NCBI GenBank assembly: GCA_017530275.1
Contig: JAFXMP010000202.1
Location: 1 to 9,792 of the forward strand
Source: Clostridia bacterium
Lineage (GTDB): Bacteria > Bacillota_A > Clostridia > Christensenellales > Aristaeellaceae
Length of the DNA: 9,792 nucleotides
Reading direction: 5' to 3'
Below are positions 3,801 to 9,792 of this stretch, in pieces. How positions within the stretch are numbered: position 1 is the first letter of the stretch; each line of letters begins with the position of its first letter. The notes under the pieces were generated by a model, which did no database searches, was not told the origin of the DNA, and saw only the letters and a list, made by a program, of their open reading frames with translations. A program made the translations under genes and the position numbers.

Positions 3801-3891
3801 AGTTTCGCAATTGCTTAAATCCCTGTTTTTCTTCCGTTTCCCGCATTCAAGCTTGACAACCTTTCCGGGTGTGTCCTGTTGAGGGAGAATT
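3801..3891. other. Intergenic stretch without a recognised feature
   Basis: This AT-rich spacer lies between the A-tracts and the first heptamer repeat element. No open reading frame with a ribosome binding site and no RNA gene is apparent. An isolated TTGACA (3853-3858, + strand) lacks a -10 box at usable spacing. Confidence 0.5.
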
Positions 3892-4036
3892 CAGAGTTCG
3901 GAGTTCAGATGATATTGTTGAGAGATAAAAACAGAGTACAGAGGATGTCGGTATATTCCCCCCATCTCTCGGGGATACCGACAAACCAATCTGTACTCTG
4001 AACTCTCTACTCTCCGCTCTCAACTCTCCGCTCTCA
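3892..4036. repeat. Heptamer inverted-repeat element, copy 1 (diverged)
   Basis: The left side has 7-bp units related to GAGAGTT (CAGAGTT at 3892, CGGAGTT at 3899, CAGAGTA at 3932, CAGAGGA at 3939). The right side is the inverted series (AACTCTC, TACTCTC, CGCTCTC, AACTCTC, CGCTCTC from 4001). An inner perfect pair CAGAGTACAGA / TCTGTACTCTG (3932-3942 with 3990-4000) encloses 47 bp. That core has its own hairpin, TGTCGGTAT / ATACCGACA (3946-3954 with 3975-3983), with CCCC and GGGG inside it. The outermost right unit supplies the TGA stop of the CHAP-domain gene (4034-4036). It matches copies 2-4 in unit type and layout. Confidence 0.8.
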
Positions 4037-4960
4037 GTACCACGTCCGGCAGAATTCCGTCACATACCAGGTGGCCTGATGCGGTTCATACTGGATATCG
4101 GGATCTGTGCGGTATTCTTCCGGGGCGGGGGACATATTATTGTTGGTTTTTGCGTCGGGCTTGTTTTTGTTGGCAGGCGCGTTGGCGTCGTACACGTAGG
4201 TGAAGCGCTTGATGCGGCTGGACAGGTTGCCTTCCACGGTGGAAAGAAGGAATTTGCCCTCCCCCAGGTCCTGAACGTCGGTGATCAGGCCCACGTGCAC
4301 GAAGGCGTAGGCGGACACGGTATTGCCATTGCTTTTGCTGTCCCGGCGGCCGTAGATCACCAAATAGCCGGGCTGGGGATCGTCCTGAGTCAGGCGGTCC
4401 ATATTGCCAAAGCCGGTGTCCAGCTTGGGCACGGCGGCTTCCCGCAGGCCGTGGGGCTCGCCGGTTTCGGTGGGCTTCACTTTTTTGTAGGTATCCGTGG
4501 GCTCCAGGGGCACGCCGGCGGCGTCTAAGCAGTAGCTGGCAAAGGCCCCGCACCAGCCGCATTCATAGCCCCACCATTTAGTATATTTATTGTAGCGCGG
4601 CTCCTTGGAGAAGGTTTTGCCCAGGTTTTCCCGCCATTCCTGAATGGCGATATCGATGGCGTTCCTAATCAGCGCGGGCACGGGATCGCTTGCGGCGGTC
4701 ACTTCCACCTCCACGGCATATTCCTGCCCGTCAGCCCCGATCAGGGCCAGCACGGCGTACCCTTCCTCGTGGGCGGTGATCACACTGCCTTCGGCGCTGG
4801 CCACCTCCGGCGCGTCGCTTTCCCAATACCCGGAAAAGGGCAGGGATAATTCGCGGCTCTCTCCCACAGTCAGCGTTAATTGTGACCGCAGCGCTTCTGA
4901 AAGGGACACGGCAGGCAGCAGGCACAGCAGGGTTAATAAGGCGCAGATGATTCTTTTCAT
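4034..4960 (-). CDS. Secreted Ig-like/CHAP-domain cell-wall hydrolase
   Basis: A signal peptide is clear: MKRII, a hydrophobic core to about residue 19, and likely cleavage near residues 20-24. Residues 27-89 look like a small bacterial Ig-like (BIG2-type) domain. From about residue 95 to 250 there is a CHAP-type cysteine amidase/peptidase: the block GYECGWCGAF gives the candidate nucleophile Cys137, FVHVGLI gives His222, and STVEGN gives the polar third position (Glu243/Asn245). CHAP enzymes usually cut peptidoglycan cross-bridges or the amide next to muramic acid; the exact bond here is unknown. The C-terminal 55 residues are polar and Asn/Pro-rich. The ATG overlaps the stop of the upstream membrane-protein gene in ATGA, so the two are translationally coupled. 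The stop codon lies inside a heptamer repeat arm. Confidence 0.8.
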   Translation of the reverse strand: MKRIICALLTLLCLLPAVSLSEALRSQLTLTVGESRELSLPFSGYWESDAPEVASAEGSVITAHEEGYAVLALIGADGQEYAVEVEVTAASDPVPALIRNAIDIAIQEWRENLGKTFSKEPRYNKYTKWWGYECGWCGAFASYCLDAAGVPLEPTDTYKKVKPTETGEPHGLREAAVPKLDTGFGNMDRLTQDDPQPGYLVIYGRRDSKSNGNTVSAYAFVHVGLITDVQDLGEGKFLLSTVEGNLSSRIKRFTYVYDANAPANKNKPDAKTNNNMSPAPEEYRTDPDIQYEPHQATWYVTEFCRTWY

Positions 4961-6039
4961 GTTTCTTCCTCTCCTTGTCGCTCCTCGGCCGCAGTCTTTT
5001 CCTCAACCCCATGGCGCATGCTCCAGGCGCTGTCGAAGATCACAGCGGCTACGCCGATGATCATGGTGAAATAATAGGTAAAAAACCGCCATAGCAGCAG
5101 CGCGCCCACCAACTTGTCTGCCGGGAACACATGCTGGAAAAAAATATAGAAGCCACCCTCCTGGGCGCCGGACGCGCCGGGCAGGGGGGTAAAAGACGCG
5201 GCGATGAACAAAAGGAACTGCAAGGTCAGCACGTCCCAATAGGTATACTGATTGAGGCCCAGGGCCCGGTAAATGCAGTAAGCGATGCTCATGAGGCCCA
5301 GCACCTGTAAGCAGGAAAGCAGATACAGATGAAAGAGCCGGATGGGATGATGGGTCAGGTAATCAACGGAAGCATGGAAATCGCCGATAGCGCCTTCCGC
5401 GCGGGCGCTAAGGCTTTGAGCGTCCTTCACCAGATGCAGGGCCTTGCCTGCCCGGATCAGCAGGTTAATGATCCCGCGCACGATATTCTTATTGATAGCC
5501 AAAAGGATCACCAGCGCCACCGTCAGGCCGTTGATCACGAACCCGGCAAATACGATCCATTTTGCCTGGTCAATGCAAGCCAATACGATAGACGGGTTCA
5601 GTATCCACAGCAGCCCGCCAAGACTCAACAGCGCCGTTTGAAACGTAAAAAACTTTACCGCCAGCCCGGAGGAAGAAACGCCCGCAGGGATCCCACGCTT
5701 TTTCAGAGCAAGCACCTGCATGGGCTGGCCTCCGGTGGCGGCGGGAGTGACAGAAGAATAAAAGCTGCCGATCAGCGCCACCAGCAGGGACAGGCTGAAT
5801 TTGATTTTTACTTTTTGCTGACGAAAAAAAACATGCAGGCCCATGGCCTCAAACGTCATGAACACGCACCAGGAGCCGATGGCCGCGATGACCCAAAATG
5901 GATTCGCGCTGCGCATAGCCGTCCAGGCATCGCCGATATCGCCGCCTCTGGCGCTGACGAACAGCACCGCAGCCAGAGTGATAACGATAATGCCCCCGTT
6001 CAGCAGGTTGCTCCGGGCGTCTTTGGACATTTTCTTCAA
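4957..6039 (-). CDS. Flippase-like integral membrane protein (LPG_synthase_TM / UPF0104 family)
   Basis: This 360-residue polytopic protein has hydrophobic segments at roughly 12-30, 48-72, 81-98, 124-147, 160-183, 236-259, 266-285 and 309-337. Two signature blocks of the family related to the N-terminal flippase half of MprF are present: SVTPAATGGQP (about 96-106) followed by a KKRGIP segment, and FTPLPGASGAQEGGF (about 283-297). The soluble lysyl-transferase domain of MprF is absent, so lipid or polyisoprenoid-linked substrate flipping is more likely than lysinylation; the substrate is unknown. The start chosen is TTG at 6039, with AAGGAAGG (6046-6053) six bases upstream. An ATG three codons in (6030) would place that site too far away. 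It is coupled to the CHAP hydrolase gene by an ATGA overlap, pointing to a shared role at the envelope. Confidence 0.85.
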   Translation of the reverse strand: MKKMSKDARSNLLNGGIIVITLAAVLFVSARGGDIGDAWTAMRSANPFWVIAAIGSWCVFMTFEAMGLHVFFRQQKVKIKFSLSLLVALIGSFYSSVTPAATGGQPMQVLALKKRGIPAGVSSSGLAVKFFTFQTALLSLGGLLWILNPSIVLACIDQAKWIVFAGFVINGLTVALVILLAINKNIVRGIINLLIRAGKALHLVKDAQSLSARAEGAIGDFHASVDYLTHHPIRLFHLYLLSCLQVLGLMSIAYCIYRALGLNQYTYWDVLTLQFLLFIAASFTPLPGASGAQEGGFYIFFQHVFPADKLVGALLLWRFFTYYFTMIIGVAAVIFDSAWSMRHGVEEKTAAEERQGEEET

Positions 6040-6088
6040 GGGTTGCCTTCCTTACAATTCTAATAGTGCGGAAAAACCGCCATTTATC

Positions 6089-6118
6089 AGTATATCATAT
6101 ACCCTGCGGATTTGTCAC
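6089..6118 (-). promoter_or_regulatory. Candidate promoter of the flippase-CHAP gene pair
   Basis: On the complement strand GTGACA (6113-6118) and TATACT (6089-6094) are separated by 18 bp. The -35 box overlaps the stop codon of the upstream regulator gene. A perfect 13-bp palindrome, GTATAT-C-ATATAC (6090-6102), covers the -10 box and could be an operator or simply AT-rich promoter sequence. Confidence 0.5.
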
Positions 6119-7188
6119 CCCCCTTTTTCTGTCTGCTTTCGCCGCTCCTGCCGCCGGATGCGGTTGATGTGGCGCTCGAAATCACCGTTTTCCAGAAGGG
6201 TGGCCAGGACATACTGCTCAAAAGCGGGCACGGGGCAGGAATAGAAAGCCGCCTTTTCCCGGAAGAGATGAAGCAGCCGGGGGGGCAGTACCATATAGCC
6301 CACGCGGATGGAGGGAGACACGGTGCGGGAAAAGGTGTTCAGGTAGATCACGTTTTGATTTTCGGCACGGGCGAACACCGTTTCCTCCGGCTTGCGCAGG
6401 AGGGAAAATTCCGATTCAAAATCGTCCTCCACGATGTAGCGTTCCCCCTGGGCCGCCCATTGCAGATACTCCCGCCGCTTGGAGGCGCTGGCGGTGACGC
6501 CGCTGGGGAAGCTGCGGTAGGGGGTGATATGCAGCACCTGGGCTTTCGTCCCTTTCAGGGCGGCGGACTGAATGCCGTCCCGGGCCAGGGGCAAAAGTTC
6601 GCATTGCACACCCCGCGCCCGGTACACCTGCTCGATCTTCTCATAGGAGGGGGATTCGATGGCGAAGGCCCGGCTGCTGCCGAGCATTTCCACCACCAGG
6701 CCATACAGGTATTCCGCGCCGGAGCCGATGACGATTTGCTCGGGGCTGACCCGGATGCCCCGGTTCCGGGCCAGGTAGCGGGACAGCGCCATACGAAGTT
6801 CGTTGCATCCCGCGTTGGGGGATTTATTCAATATGGCTTCGCCGTATTCGGTCAGCACCCGCCGCATGGTGCGGGCCAGGGTGGCGAAAGGGAAGGCGTT
6901 TTCCGGGCGGGAAGCGTATCGAACGGGCGGGCGAGAAGAAGCCGGGGCAGGCGCGAAGCCCTCCGAAGGCCGGAAAATCACAAAAAAGCCGCTGCGGGGC
7001 CGGGCCTCGATATAGCCCTCCTGGCAGAGCAATTCGTAACTGTGCTCCACGGTGATCACGCTCACACCCCGGTCCCGGGCCGTCTGCCGCCGGGAGGGCA
7101 GGCGCGCGCCGAAGGGCCACACCCCGTCCGTGATCTCCTGCCGCACCGCTTCATACAGGTGCAGGTACGCCGGTTTATTCCGCTCCAT
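6115..7188 (-). CDS. MocR-type regulator (GntR wHTH fused to aminotransferase-like domain), atypical and short
   Basis: Residues 1-72 form a GntR-type winged helix (PAYLHLYEAVRQEITDGVWP, then LPSRRQTARDRGVSVITVEHSYELL). After a Pro/Ala-rich linker, residues 95-350 resemble a fold-type I aminotransferase, with IVIGSGAEYLYGLV, ESPSYEKIEQVYRARGV, TPYRSFPSG and IVEDDFESEF. In MocR proteins such as GabR this domain binds PLP through a lysine in a TFSK motif. Here the motif is TFSRTVSPSIRVGY, so Arg288 replaces the lysine. The protein ends at 357 residues in HINRIRRQERRKQTEKGG, whereas the family is usually about 450-480, so the last ~100 residues of the effector domain are absent. The next gene starts 76 bases later, leaving no room for them. 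It is divergent from the ECF S component and probably controls it. It could be a PLP-independent regulator or a decaying gene. Confidence 0.85.
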   Translation of the reverse strand: MERNKPAYLHLYEAVRQEITDGVWPFGARLPSRRQTARDRGVSVITVEHSYELLCQEGYIEARPRSGFFVIFRPSEGFAPAPASSRPPVRYASRPENAFPFATLARTMRRVLTEYGEAILNKSPNAGCNELRMALSRYLARNRGIRVSPEQIVIGSGAEYLYGLVVEMLGSSRAFAIESPSYEKIEQVYRARGVQCELLPLARDGIQSAALKGTKAQVLHITPYRSFPSGVTASASKRREYLQWAAQGERYIVEDDFESEFSLLRKPEETVFARAENQNVIYLNTFSRTVSPSIRVGYMVLPPRLLHLFREKAAFYSCPVPAFEQYVLATLLENGDFERHINRIRRQERRKQTEKGG

Positions 7189-7220
7189 CTGGTCTTATGT
7201 TTTTCTCCTGTTCTGGCACT

Positions 7221-7248
7221 TTTCACAGGGCCAAATTGGGCTTATACT
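7221..7248 (+). promoter_or_regulatory. Candidate promoter of the ECF S-component gene
   Basis: TTCACA (7221-7226), a 16-bp spacer and TATACT (7243-7248) lie about 50 bases upstream of the ATG at 7298. The CCAA-A-TTGG palindrome (7231-7239) sits in the spacer, where a bound regulator would block polymerase. Confidence 0.55.
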
Positions 7249-7276
7249 TTCCACCGTAATCCAATAGCAATTGGAT
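7231..7276. promoter_or_regulatory. Paired palindromes, putative operator of the MocR-type regulator
   Basis: Two related inverted repeats lie in the divergent gap: CCAA-A-TTGG (7231-7239) and the longer ATCCAAT-AGCA-ATTGGAT (7259-7276, perfect 7-bp arms). Their centres are about 32 bp, roughly three helical turns, apart. They overlap the core elements of both divergent promoters. MocR regulators commonly bind paired sites in such gaps and repress themselves while activating the neighbour. Assignment to this regulator is by position. Confidence 0.55.
7241..7270 (-). promoter_or_regulatory. Candidate promoter of the MocR-type regulator gene
   Basis: On the complement strand TTGCTA (7265-7270), an 18-bp spacer and TATAAG (7241-7246) give a start near 7234, about 45 bases before the regulator ATG. 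The -10 region overlaps that of the opposite promoter and the -35 box lies inside the larger palindrome, so the two promoters probably compete. Confidence 0.5.
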
Positions 7277-7297
7277 GCGAAAAAGGGGTGACGATCG

Positions 7298-7864
7298 ATG
7301 AAAAAACAGGATGTTAAGGTGGTTGAAATCGTGTTTGTGGGGTTGCTGGCGGCCATGGTATATGTGGTGACGCTGTTCCGTTTCCCGCTGCTGGGCTCTA
7401 AGGTGCATTTTGCCAACGCGGTATGTCTGCTGGGCGGCATGCTGCTGGGGCCGTGGCTGGGCGGGATCGCCGCCGGGCTGGGCTCCGCGCTGTATGACGC
7501 ATTCCACGGCTATGATTTTCTGAACGTGATGATCACTTTTGTCAGCAAGTTCGCCATGGCCTGGGTGTGCGGGGCCATCATGCACAAAACCGGCAAAGGC
7601 AGGCTGCGGATCGACCGTACCATGCTTTCCGCCGTGGCCGGTGCGCTGACCTATGTGGCGCTGTATATGCTGAAGACCTATATTTTCGGCTTGATCGCCG
7701 GGAACGGCTGGGCCGCTGTGATCAGCAAATTCCCCGCTTCCATCATCAACGCCGGCGCAGCCATCGTGGCCGCCCCCGTCTTCTTCCACGCGGTGCTGCC
7801 AGCCCTCAAATCCAGCGGGGCCTTGCGGTATCTGCGCCCGGCGGAAACGGCGGGGAAAGACTAA
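7298..7864 (+). CDS. ECF-type transporter substrate-binding (S) component
   Basis: This 188-residue, very hydrophobic protein has about six membrane segments (roughly 8-28, 37-50, 51-68, 76-96, 109-133 and 145-168). The block HFANAVCLLGGMLLGPWLGG followed by IAAGLGSALYD is characteristic of S components of energy-coupling factor vitamin transporters. The first helix has a small-residue patch (GLLAAM, residues 15-20) of the kind that docks on EcfT. No EcfA or EcfT genes are in the window, so it presumably uses a shared module encoded elsewhere. The ATG at 7298 follows AAGGGGTGA with six bases of spacing. The substrate is not readable from the sequence. Divergence from a MocR-type (PdxR-like) regulator makes a vitamin B6-related compound one reasonable guess. 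The stop is three bases before a heptamer repeat element. Confidence 0.85.
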   Translation: MKKQDVKVVEIVFVGLLAAMVYVVTLFRFPLLGSKVHFANAVCLLGGMLLGPWLGGIAAGLGSALYDAFHGYDFLNVMITFVSKFAMAWVCGAIMHKTGKGRLRIDRTMLSAVAGALTYVALYMLKTYIFGLIAGNGWAAVISKFPASIINAGAAIVAAPVFFHAVLPALKSSGALRYLRPAETAGKD

Positions 7865-7867
7865 GGG

Positions 7868-7986
7868 CGGAGTTGGGAGTTGAAAGTTGAGAGTTGAGAG
7901 TTGAGATAATATAGTCCGATCATTTTTGAAACCGGCATATCGGATCCATATAAATCTCAACTCTCCGCTCTCAACTCTCAACTCTT
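7868..7986. repeat. Heptamer inverted-repeat element, copy 2
   Basis: The left arm has five 7-bp units (CGGAGTT, GGGAGTT, GAAAGTT, GAGAGTT, GAGAGTT from 7868) then GAGATAA. The right arm has ATCTC then AACTCTC, CGCTCTC, AACTCTC, AACTCTT (7954-7986). Between GAGAT (7903-7907) and ATCTC (7954-7958) lie 46 bp containing a nested pair TCCGAT/ATCGGA (7915-7920 with 7939-7944). The element fills the space between two convergent genes. Its right arm encodes the last residue (Ser) and the TGA stop of the C39-type gene. Confidence 0.85.
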
Positions 7987-7990
7987 TTTT
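7889..7990 (+). terminator. Terminator-like hairpin plus T-run formed by repeat copy 2
   Basis: For transcripts of the ECF S-component gene, the repeat arms can fold into a long imperfect stem (12 uninterrupted pairs, a 2-base mismatch, then more pairs) that is followed by six T (7985-7990). The loop of about 46 nt is large but contains a helix of its own. The opposite strand has no T-run after the arm, so termination would be one-directional. Confidence 0.45.
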
Positions 7991-8586
7991 ATTTGTTCGG
8001 TTCTCCAGATCAGCAGCAGTTCCCGATCCTTATACGCTCCCATAGCGTAGTCCGATTTGTCCTGCAAGTTCAGCAGGTCAAAGCGCACGGCCCGGTTGTA
8101 TTCCTTGGGCTTACCGGAAACCGCCCTCCGGCCCGGTTCCTTGAAATCCGGTTCCTCCTCGTAAGGGTCGAACAGGCCGATTTCGTTATCCGGCAGAATG
8201 GCCGTCAGCAGCACGTAATGGCCGATGCCCCCGGCGGTGCAGCGCATGACGGCGCAGCCGCCCTTTTCCAGGCATTCCCACACCCTGCCGCCCGGCGCGA
8301 TTTCCGCCTGCTCATTTTCCAGGAATTCCGCCCCGATGGGAAAATGCCAACCCTTGGCGTAGCAGTTGAACCAATCCGCCATATACCGCATGGCCGCTTT
8401 GGATGTTCCATGACATCCGACGCAGCCTTTTTCACAGTAGGTATCGTTGCCCATGAGCCAGATGTGCTTCAGCAGCCCCGGCAAAATTTCCTCCCGTTCA
8501 AACAGATACCGGATAGCGTTGGTCAGGCTGGTCGGGCCGCAGTCGTATTCGGAGGATTGATAAATCAGATCATTCTTCATTTTCAT
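7978..8586 (-). CDS. Stand-alone C39-like cysteine peptidase
   Basis: The N-terminal block YQSSEYDCGPTSLTNAIRYLF matches the papain-like C39 fold of bacteriocin leader peptidases: oxyanion Gln10 and nucleophile Cys16, with His123 in GIGHYVLLT and Asp140 in LFDPY completing the triad (numbered from the ATG at 8586). There is no signal peptide, membrane segment or ABC domain, so it is a free cytosolic enzyme, about 202 residues. Its substrate is unknown and no small precursor peptide with a double-Gly leader is evident nearby. Residues 51-59 hold an odd Cys-rich insert, CEKGCVGCH. The start is uncertain: GTG at 8589, ATG at 8586 or ATG at 8580 all follow a weak AAAGAAG site. The stop lies inside repeat copy 2. 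No good promoter was seen, so it may be read through from the permease gene. Confidence 0.75.
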   Translation of the reverse strand: MKMKNDLIYQSSEYDCGPTSLTNAIRYLFEREEILPGLLKHIWLMGNDTYCEKGCVGCHGTSKAAMRYMADWFNCYAKGWHFPIGAEFLENEQAEIAPGGRVWECLEKGGCAVMRCTAGGIGHYVLLTAILPDNEIGLFDPYEEEPDFKEPGRRAVSGKPKEYNRAVRFDLLNLQDKSDYAMGAYKDRELLLIWRTEQIKKS

Positions 8587-8611
8587 CACTTCTTTTTGTA
8601 ATCATGGTGTG

Positions 8612-8716
8612 GAGAGCGGAGAGTTGAGAGTTGAGATTTATATAGCTGACCAACTGTGGCCGCCTATTGGTAGACACTATCATATCTCCACTCTCAACTC
8701 TCAACTCCCAACTCTC
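8612..8716. repeat. Heptamer inverted-repeat element, copy 3
   Basis: Left units are GAGAGCG, GAGAGTT, GAGAGTT then GAGATTT (8612-8639). The right arm has ATCTC then CACTCTC, AACTCTC, AACTCCC, AACTCTC (8684-8716). The arms pair over 19 positions with one mismatch. Between GAGAT (8633-8637) and ATCTC (8684-8688) lie 46 bp, the same length as in copy 2 but with unrelated sequence, containing ACCAA/TTGGT (8649-8653 with 8667-8671). The right arm begins four bases after the permease stop codon. The element occupies almost the whole gap between permease and C39-type gene. Confidence 0.85.
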
Positions 8717-8720
8717 TTAA

Positions 8721-9578
8721 TCATTCTTCGTTCCTCGGGTCAAAGGCATCCCGCAGGGCGTCCCCCACGAAATTGATGCACACCACCAGCAGGATGATCA
8801 CCGCGCCTGCGGGCACCCACAGCCAGGGCTTATCGGTAAGCACGCTGAGAGATTCCGCGCCCTCCAAGATGTTGCCTAAGGAGGGGGTGGGCTTCTGCAC
8901 GCCCATGCCCAGGAAGGACAGGGCAGCTTCGTCCAGGATGGACAGGGCGAACACGCTGGTGGCGAACACCAGCACCGGGGCCACGGTGTTGGGCAGGATC
9001 TCCGAAAACAGGATATAGCGCCGGGGCATGCCGGCGGCGATATCGCTTTTGATGAAATTGGTTTCCCGGAGGCTTAGCACGTTGCCCCGCACCAGCCGGG
9101 CCACGCCGGGCCAATCCACAAAGCCCAAAATCAGCACGATGCTCCACATACCGGGCTGGAAAATAGCCGCCGCCACCAGCACCAGCAGGATATAAGGGAA
9201 GGACATGACCATGTCCGTAAAGCTCATGATGGCCTTATCCACCGCCCCGCCGAAATAGCCGCTGACCAGCCCCAAGATCACGCCGATCACGGTGGAAATC
9301 AGGGTCGCCAGGAAGCCCACCAGCAGGCTCACCCGCATGGCGTACAGGATGCGGCTGTACATATCCCGGCCGATCTTATCCGTTCCCAAAATATGCTCCG
9401 CCGTGGGCGGCTGTGAAAACTTGCCCGTGGGCTTCGTCGGCTCGTAGGGCGCGATTACCGGGGCCAGCACCGCCATGCCAATCAGCACGGCCAGGATCAC
9501 CAGACAGACCACTGCCGCCTTATGATGGCAGAACCGCTTGATAATGGGGCGGTATTTGCCGCTTGCTTTCGTGGACAA
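8721..9578 (-). CDS. DppC/OppC-type ABC transporter permease
   Basis: This 285-residue inner-membrane permease belongs to the peptide/nickel (Dpp/Opp) ABC importer family. The N-terminal segment (about 22-43) is followed by the diagnostic HILGTDKIGRDMYSRILYAMRVSL block (about 62-85). Further membrane segments lie at about 84-108, 117-137, 144-160, 200-220 and 254-274. The EAA coupling loop reads AAGMPRRYILFSEILPN (181-197), and the usual end NFVGDALRDAFDPR is present, so the protein is full length. The start is TTG at 9578, backed by AAGGAGGG seven bases upstream. Such permeases work as a pair with DppB plus two ATPases and a binding protein. None of these is in the window, and an insertion sequence with a half repeat element lies where dppB would normally sit. 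The substrate (oligopeptide, dipeptide or metal chelate) cannot be told. Confidence 0.92.
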   Translation of the reverse strand: MSTKASGKYRPIIKRFCHHKAAVVCLVILAVLIGMAVLAPVIAPYEPTKPTGKFSQPPTAEHILGTDKIGRDMYSRILYAMRVSLLVGFLATLISTVIGVILGLVSGYFGGAVDKAIMSFTDMVMSFPYILLVLVAAAIFQPGMWSIVLILGFVDWPGVARLVRGNVLSLRETNFIKSDIAAGMPRRYILFSEILPNTVAPVLVFATSVFALSILDEAALSFLGMGVQKPTPSLGNILEGAESLSVLTDKPWLWVPAGAVIILLVVCINFVGDALRDAFDPRNEE

Positions 9579-9585
9579 CAGGTTT

Positions 9586-9593
9586 CCCTCCTT
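9586..9593 (-). promoter_or_regulatory. Ribosome binding site fixing the TTG start of the permease
   Basis: AAGGAGGG on the complement strand is near-perfect for 16S rRNA pairing and stands seven bases before TTG at 9578. No ATG or GTG in frame has a comparable site. Confidence 0.8.
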
Positions 9594-9613
9594 GAAAAAG
9601 GTCGAACAGTGGG

Positions 9614-9648
9614 AAGAGTTGAGAGTTGGGAGTTGGGAGTTGAGATAA
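9614..9648. repeat. Heptamer repeat element, copy 4 (left half only)
   Basis: Units AAGAGTT, GAGAGTT, GGGAGTT, GGGAGTT then GAGATAA run in the same order and end with the same GAGATAA as the left arm of copy 2. No inverted right arm follows within the window. Instead the sequence passes into the end of an insertion sequence. The missing half may lie beyond the insertion sequence, outside the window. Confidence 0.75.
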
Positions 9649-9652
9649 AGTT

Positions 9653-9792
9653 AGAGTGTGTTTCTAAAAGTATACCCGCCTGCATTATGCAAGCAGTATG
9701 CGAATACAAGCCAGATGGACAAAGGCCAGGAAACGGTCAGCGAGCTTATCATAGCGGGTAGCGACGCGGCGAAACTCCTTCAGCTTTAAGAA
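9653..9792 (-). mobile_element. 3' end of an IS5-type insertion sequence (continues past the right edge)
   Basis: A transposase C terminus (see next entry) stops about 30 bases before AGAGTGTGTTTCTAAA (9653-9668), which is where the terminal inverted repeat is expected. The short distance from stop codon to element end is typical of IS5-family elements. The exact boundary is uncertain because the other end is outside the window. Confidence 0.65.
9685..9792 (-). CDS. IS5-family DDE transposase, C-terminal fragment
   Basis: The complement strand is open from the window edge to TAA at 9685-9687, coding 35 residues. They include FRRVATRYDKLADRFLAF and end VHLACIRILLA. The segment RRVATRYDKLA followed by a hydrophobic FLAFVHLA tail is the well-known C terminus of IS5/IS427-type DDE transposases, which cut and paste the element through a DDE catalytic core. 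Only the end is visible, so completeness and activity cannot be judged. The reading frame is uninterrupted. Confidence 0.85.
   Translation of the reverse strand, partial: FLKLKEFRRVATRYDKLADRFLAFVHLACIRILLA

Follow-up and report, generated by a model that had tools for sequence, protein, structure and literature searches.

What are the arrays of seven-nucleotide units that lie among the genes of the Clostridia bacterium contig JAFXMP010000202.1, and why do they occur as inverted pairs? A first-pass annotation of the 9,792 nt analyzed here (the window, meaning the whole stretch) had described tandem GAGAGTT-like units in inverted orientation at four sites, one of them a half copy. The arrays are indeed present at all four and their inversion is confirmed, with cores of 47 nt in copy 1 (3885-4038; hand count between the innermost units CAGAGTACAGAG and CTGTACTCTG), 46 nt in copy 2 (inverted arms 7877-7907/7954-7984) and 46 nt in copy 3 (8609-8637/8684-8712). 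Sequence comparison indicates that these elements are probably short (about 110-160 bp), non-coding, non-autonomous mobile palindromes resembling miniature inverted-repeat transposable elements (MITEs), with arms that turn over in 7-nt units. We call them MITE-like and not proven MITEs, as neither a target duplication nor a transposase was found. Direct observation covers how the elements are built and how many there are, that their cores form families and their outer ends are shared, which orthologous sites have or lack them, and that they sit at gene ends; mobility is read from the comparison between species.

Well-preserved copies follow one layout: an outer repeat, AAAGRACRCTTTAARTCA, about 4.5 tandem heptamers, a short A/T-rich junction (in many cases TTTATATAGT or TTTATTTTG) and a core of about 46-60 nt, followed by the reverse complement. 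Related loci were collected by using the energy-coupling factor (ECF) transporter protein of the window as a query against genome contigs, 80 of 87 relatives being kept (L001-L080). In L001-L004, which come from goat reticulum, a 'RUG' assembly and red deer (L004 is labelled Christensenellaceae), this protein is 91-96% identical to that of the window; L001-L005 and L014 belong to genomes G001-G006, which were searched by pattern. Those relatives whose record titles were visible are metagenome assemblies. The large set of 3.7 Mb combined contigs designated G4 (1.19 Mb), G1 (0.68 Mb), G2 (0.36 Mb) and G3 (0.35 Mb) with L001-L080 (1.09 Mb) and the window. The G003 contigs had been chosen for having matches, and therefore no density was derived from this genome; L002 sits on a contig also fetched as G2C13, so that its elements can be counted twice. 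Counts of orthologous pairs take in reciprocal comparisons, gene predictions are our own hexamer-based calls, and readings made by eye comprise the copy 4 junction, the site shared by L268, L273 and G1C10, and two of nine sites with swapped units.

A first detector run on 1.90 Mb for any inverted pair with a period of 7 recovered 49 pairs, one of which spans two neighbouring elements. In the large set the detector found 372 inverted repeats whose arms reach 15 nt or more; the arms have period 7 in 174 of these, and both arms carry the identical consensus unit in 145 of the 174. When arms of at least 20 nt are considered (n=268), the best period is 7 in 49, 14 in 98, another in 5 and none in 116; the most frequent arm lengths are 32 and 31 nt. 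Period-7 inverted repeats occur in 8 of the 75 loci L006-L080. Two 50-kb stretches of Escherichia coli MG1655 used as a control yielded two inverted repeats of this minimum arm length (15 nt), neither with period 7. A gapped two-arm GAGAGTT pattern matched 160 times in G001 and 213 times in G004, overlapping matches counted, against none for the reversed control, which is more than expected by chance. The ungapped pattern is no test of enrichment: its reversed control is equally frequent because the array is nearly identical when read backwards.

GAGAGTT is itself only one of at least eight heptamers found in a single architecture, a point new to this analysis; AGGTAGG, AAAGTGR, AGAGTNC, GGGATTA, AGTTCTA and others show the same layout. 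Across 297 genomes of the order the GAGAGTT frame gave the 160 matches of G001 and 1-9 in each of 51 others, where, among the matches listed, the inspected places were mostly chance, G107 excepted; contig 145 of G107, another genome of the order, bears a GAAAGTT heptamer inverted repeat at 1869-1954. The GGGATTA frame had no match in the 297 genomes; in a set of 12 genomes it matched 74 times in G320, which was obtained by another route, and 0-3 times in each of the other 11. Over 12 genomes the AGTTCTA frame matched 120 times in G318, 104 in G320, 41 in G006, 31 in G319, 22 in G315 and 2 in G314, with none in the remaining six, including G004; for both frames overlaps were counted and reversed controls gave zero. 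The preferred heptamer units differ among lineages.

The cores had been described as unrelated in sequence and constant in length. Comparison of 184 elements resolved families of 23, 17, 13, 11 and fewer members. The largest, which includes copy 3 and has members in G001-G004, unites 21 GAGAGTT with 2 AGAGTNC elements, and the 17-member family 16 GAGAGTT elements with one AGTGTGG element; core links between unit classes (3 pairs versus 262 within classes) are confined to these two. The core of copy 2 is common to its orthologues in L002 and L004. Because families exist the cores are not free sequence, and the copies first described happened to come from different families. Nor is the length general: cores span 21-175 nt overall and 27-115 nt in the GAGAGTT class, where only 36 of 89 fall within 45-49 nt, the AGGTAGG class has a median of 58 nt, and core length follows core family. 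Random spacing between arms, proposed beforehand as the sign of simple-sequence expansion, was found neither to prevail nor to be absent, the spacing having modes at 46 and 55-56 nt but a wide spread. One core, on G001 contig 26 (85888-85967), includes a hairpin that resembles a two-way terminator, CTCCCAGG...CCTGGGAG, flanked by runs of A and T.

Outside the arms of the better-preserved copies lies AAAGRACRCTTTAARTCA in inverse orientation. This outer repeat was found at 65 array-flanking ends, about half of them from stretches fetched for carrying it; two are wrongly oriented and probably chance matches. The pattern ACACTTTAAGTCA, with at most one mismatch, matched 48, 35, 36 and 23 times in G001-G004, against 3, 2, 1 and 1 for the reversed control, and a stricter pattern is present in 11 of 29 genomes of the genus. 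The outer repeat adjoins at least eight units, namely AGAGTTG, AGGTAGG, AAAAGTG, AGAGTNC, AGTGTGG, GGGATTA, AGATAGA-like and AGTTCTA; it is clear on one side only for AAAAGTG and AGTGTGG, and for AGTTCTA the association comes from positions on contig 26 of G315. Seven of 16 listed outer-repeat sites (of 19) in G320 lie within about 35 bp of a GGGATTA pair, among the matches listed. Paired outer repeats number 33, of which three, inside genes, look like chance; the other 30 span 130-159 bp, 16 having been fetched because they were paired. Members of the 23-element core family have the outer repeat on both sides in 8 cases, on one in 4 and on neither in 11, remnants being kept in some of the 11; as six of the eight two-sided members were fetched for the outer repeat, the other 17 divide into 2, 4 and 11. 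At the inner junction the core often starts with TTTATATAGT or TTTATTTTG across different unit classes, such motifs occupying a share of 0.61 of GAGAGTT ends (n=127) and 0.57 of AGGTAGG ends (n=65), with weaker shares in AGAGTNC (0.25, n=16 ends) and AAAGTGR (0.20, n=66). GTTCAG was considered as an outermost motif and rejected, being absent from the enriched 6-mers.

The variety of units bears on the suggestion of the first-pass annotation that the arrays bind protein. Regular tandem units, about four per arm, would suit a host or transposon protein recognising the heptamer, but at least eight unit sequences stand beside the same outer repeat, and because the unit varies among elements with the same outer ends we consider a sequence-specific binding array very unlikely.

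The same outer repeat, AAAGRACRCTTTAARTCA, also bounds longer, G+C-rich elements of about 440 bp at L283:329-767 and L285:358-797 (G001 contigs 28 and 23), which are identical at 428 of 440 positions and whose longest closed open reading frames (ORFs) have 101 (L283) and 73 (L285) codons. A permissive Rfam search placed a sub-threshold small RNA model in the L283 element and a tRNA above the gathering score in L285, outside the element. Several G001 contigs terminate just within such an outer repeat.

Orthologous sites supply the evidence for gain. In 117 pairs of orthologous flanks (113 without repeats of the same element and genome) the second site is shorter by at least 60 nt in 40, similar in 68 and longer in 9. 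If a bare site is defined by at most 60 nt left and no period-7 array, 32 of the 40 shortened pairs qualify, representing 26 distinct elements; the remaining 8 show another hairpin or a poor alignment. For example, the element at L003:4632 has no counterpart at this site in L004, the L002/G2 genome and the window, that at G3C71:11132 is missing in G4 and G2, and that at G3C36:5415 is missing in G4 and G1. Insertion is the parsimonious account of these three, and the bare sites for 26 elements point to gain. The earlier suggestion of a MITE-like element with a fast-evolving core thus survives in its first half, through dispersed copies, core families, a terminal inverted repeat and bare sites. 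Its second half is not supported: in 36 homologous-core pairs identity is 0.852 in the core versus 0.874 in the flanks, and the families have their own lengths.

These same pairs reveal how the arms change. Aligned arm positions are 0.915 identical, and unaligned positions make up 11.8% of the arms, 1.9% of the core and 5.2% of the flanks; it is mostly through stretches gained or lost that the arms diverge, while the core changes at about the rate of the flanks. Such behaviour would be expected if a polymerase slipped in 7-nt steps at gene-end hairpins and template switching kept the arms matched, with no movement at all. Most genomes rich in long simple repeats have heptanucleotide units more often than any other, and a 7-nt polymerase contact has been proposed (Mrazek et al. 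2007, via PMC4679880), both of which would favour simple-sequence expansion. This explanation is nevertheless unlikely, as copying is needed to place one core family at unrelated loci and to give elements a common outer repeat, and whole elements are missing at orthologous sites.

Sites can also hold different arrays. Of the pairs that lack a homologous core (n=60), another period-7 array occupies the site in 18, against a background in which about 7% of gene gaps are occupied (146 elements among 2100 adjacent gene pairs); the biased G003 and reciprocal pairs are part of the set, and diverged homologues may be. Different heptamers occupy nine orthologous sites, seven recognised by the classifier (L001/L004, G1C26/G3C10, G1C21/G4C2, G4C1/G2C18, G4C3/G2C5, G4C14/G3C66 and L003/L004, the last judged from a single flank, as the L003 contig stops at that point) and two by eye (G3C18/G1C16 and G2C17/G3C18). 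It is conceivable, though we regard it as doubtful, that the 7-nt period is maintained by a process and not by sequence, the outer ends and the inner junction persisting while the arms between them are rewritable, left and right together, with a range of purine-rich heptamers. The elements would then be mobile and their stems sequence-agnostic, with re-templating in 7-nt steps by copying primed from a hairpin or by the exchange of hairpin tips once extruded; if true, this would also explain identical outer junctions with different interiors. Another hairpin, GGGGGAAACC...GGTTTCCCCC followed by ACCCCCTTCC, was seen at gene ends in L001 (about 2030-2090), G4C2:6114-6200 and G1C3:11396-11500; sister species have a heptamer element where it sits, and in L001 it is preceded by the outer-repeat-like ACACTTTCAATTGA.

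The elements are placed close to genes and rarely within them. Although the sequence is 87% coding, 141 of 146 overlap a predicted gene by at most 30 nt; the median distance is 14 nt to a gene 3' end and 54 nt to a gene start, and the gene gaps that they occupy are convergent in 27 and divergent in 10 cases, versus 237 and 246 in the background. At G4C14:23194 a gene seems to continue reading into the element. At least four T within 6 nt follow 57 of 296 element ends, 2.7 times the background of 7.2%, and some elements may therefore act as terminators. Selection for transcription terminators or stabilisers of mRNA 3' ends, with the sequence free and only the hairpin of consequence, would fit this placement and the slightly greater conservation of aligned arms than of cores and flanks. 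Moreover, a classical terminator precedes the element at 8 of 158 gene ends facing one, versus 226 of 1860 genes without an element, as though the element had replaced it. On the other hand four fifths of the ends are without a T-run, five T in a row follow only 8 of 296, and a stem plus T-run of the intrinsic-terminator kind is found at a minority of ends. Selection of this kind would furthermore account for use after insertion and not for the copies, and among 691 Watson-Crick arm pairs that could be aligned, a double change restored a Watson-Crick pair in 7, whereas pairing was lost in 63 (55 single, 8 double changes). We therefore find it quite unlikely as the general explanation. Insertion after terminators was seen at some sites and is not a general rule.

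The structured RNA class once suggested is likewise not supported, given the weak compensatory change in the arms and the lack of any Rfam match at the gathering score in the window. A permissive Rfam search of eight fetched loci gave, at the elements, only sub-threshold hairpin models, mostly of microRNAs. Copies 1-3 fold much better than dinucleotide shuffles on both strands (z -5.5 to -11.1), and the half copy folds no better than its shuffles (z -0.15).

Several observations weigh against mobile palindromes with a common outer end. A recognisable outer repeat, with up to two mismatches, is present at 50 of 348 arm ends, so that most copies are without it, as are those of the window. The AGGTAGG elements at L003:4610-4765 and G3C71:11132-11244 lie within a different outer palindrome, ACGCATGAATG...AAATTGGGATTTAT, and the AGGTAGG element at G4C15:9617 likewise has another outer palindrome. 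No length of target-site duplication stands out in the 33 outer-repeat pairs (three of them chance). The fetched DNA contained no gene-sized element with paired outer repeats, in a strict scan that also missed the 440-bp elements; the scan for an autonomous partner, which elements with unequal ends escape and which covered whole genomes by pattern only, gave among the matches listed one long outer-repeat pair, a chance one. Several filled sites differ from the bare site beyond the element itself. None of the 36 homologous-core pairs is between strains of one species, and no insertion was caught in the act. Finally, by eye, G4C3:100592 and G2C5:7835 look alike at the junction with the outer repeat but have different interiors, as do L268 and L273, whose left junction also resembles the end of contig G1C10. 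We infer from remnants such as GACTTAATGCCTCC that copies without an outer repeat lost theirs, and target-site duplications may be missing because the copies are too old. At the same-junction sites either insertion was very site-specific or interiors were exchanged, and plain insertion does not explain them.

Based on these comparisons we propose that the MITE-like palindromes would be moved by an enzyme supplied in trans and acting on their outer ends. Copies would persist where genes stay intact, mostly just past stop codons, and after insertion the outer ends would decay while the arms gain and lose 7-nt units. Occasional copying of one arm onto the other may keep the two alike, and the role of the arms would be to form a long hairpin irrespective of the letters of the unit.

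Copies of the window and the insertion sequence at its end (positions of the window).
Feature	Positions	Strand	Remarks and basis
Copy 1, left arm	3885..3943		AGAGTTC/AGAGTAC-type heptamers, interrupted; sequence
Copy 1, core, 47 nt	3944..3990		nested TGTCGGTAT/ATACCGACA; sequence and fold
Copy 1, right arm, about 7 units	3991..4038		sequence
Copy 2, left arm, GAGAGTT-type	7868..7907		begins 3 nt past the ECF-transporter ORF 7298-7864
Copy 2, core, 46 nt	7908..7953		nested TCCGAT/ATCGGA; sequence and fold
Copy 2, right arm, then T-run	7954..7986		sequence
Copy 3, left arm	8607..8637		sequence
Copy 3, core, 46 nt	8638..8683		in the 23-element core family
Copy 3, right arm	8684..8716		sequence
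Copy 4, left arm and core start	9608..9653		cut by insertion sequence; orthologue L001:3746-3880
End of interrupting insertion sequence	9654..9792	-	transposase 3' end 9685-9792; junction read by eye

Copy 1 looks composite, with its left arm broken up. Copy 4 looks interrupted because the orthologous place in L001 holds a complete element; the insertion sequence that cuts it is putatively of the DDE type, its transposase end matching PF13586 below the curated cut-off (E=0.0065). The window further encodes what we take to be a ribosomal-protein operon, its genes being named from the sequence, along with LPG_synthase_TM, GntR/aminotransferase, ECF-transporter and OppC-type permease genes and CHAP-like and C39-like genes, the last two recognised by profile matches under cut-off. 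The stop codon of the CHAP-like ORF (4034-4960, minus strand) lies at 4034-4036, inside the right arm of copy 1, and that of the C39-like ORF (7978-8589, minus strand) at 7978-7980, inside the right arm of copy 2.

Similar arrays turn up elsewhere. Fourteen of 80 IMG/VR stretches fetched by the GAGAGTT or outer-repeat pattern have such inverted repeats by script count; L346 is plainly not heptameric, and L342, L336 and L351 have other units. The IMG/VR contigs L342, L307 and L318 have several period-7 inverted repeats each, with clearly different units in L342. A phage collection gave no match to one family sequence. In another phylum, GAGAGTT-type arrays lie at or beside the ends of lpxB and cydB in Bacteroides finegoldii (L367:5001-5037 and L368:5001-5036), where the detector found no period-7 inverted pair.

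Bacterial MITEs are short, non-coding, dispersed, intergenic sequences with terminal inverted repeats. The elements described here likewise are short and non-coding with terminal inverted repeats, and have dispersed similar copies and filled and empty orthologous sites; unlike MITEs they have tandem heptamer arms of variable sequence, no target duplication stood out, and the scan for an autonomous partner, blind to unequal ends, found none. Repetitive extragenic palindromic (REP) sequences and REP doublets forming hairpins (REPINs) are short palindromes, present in hundreds per genome, with a GTAG or CGTC tag at the foot of the hairpin. Unlike these, our elements end in AAAGRAC with no such tag, are much longer and contain tandem units.

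The closest precedent, by analogy, appears to be the inverted GGGAATC arrays of Xanthomonas, of which two genomes have 186 and 183, with 70 and 75 inverted pairs (Rehm et al. 2015, PMC4692102). As far as the parts of that paper covered here describe them, they mostly have four units, are 89% and 93% intergenic and follow the 5' neighbouring gene by a mean of 28 nt, and thus share with our elements the inverted pairs of tandem heptamers after genes. They differ in having one unit, studied as a quadruplex former and generally unassociated with mobile elements, and in that those parts describe no outer repeat or core family (PMC4692102). The P6b hairpin of the Nostoc tRNA-Leu intron, in the portion of PMC4476775 covered, has a stem of 7-nt repeats in two very different sequences of similar structure, for which replacement of the whole region was inferred; it occupies a single intron position, whereas our elements are dispersed (PMC4476775). 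In Geobacter metallireducens, 15 of 16 'class 3' sites are five tandem MTYCTGA heptamers, drawn looping back on the other strand and, in the sections covered, read as binding sites of a regulator; these have one unit, unlike the many found here (PMC2700814). Lastly, the TAACTGA repeats of Beggiatoaceae, some cyanobacteria and Bacteroidetes are intergenic tandem heptamers (169 sets in one genome) which, within the covered parts of their description, are direct (one is indirect) and mostly upstream of start codons, unlike our elements (PMC4679880).

A literature search, mostly outside subscription journals, found no work uniting heptamer hairpins or reporting this outer repeat, and a search with literal array and outer-repeat strings returned nothing related. 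The heptamer hairpins of Xanthomonas, Geobacter and the Nostoc intron have been reported separately, each with one or two units and an explanation of its own. Many units in one genus, often in one genome, beside one outer repeat point instead to mobile hairpins of a single kind whose arms can be replaced, and this replaceability is the unusual part. These elements offer a tractable system for asking what favours 7 nt as a repeat length in bacteria, and by what route the two arms of a palindrome come to change together.

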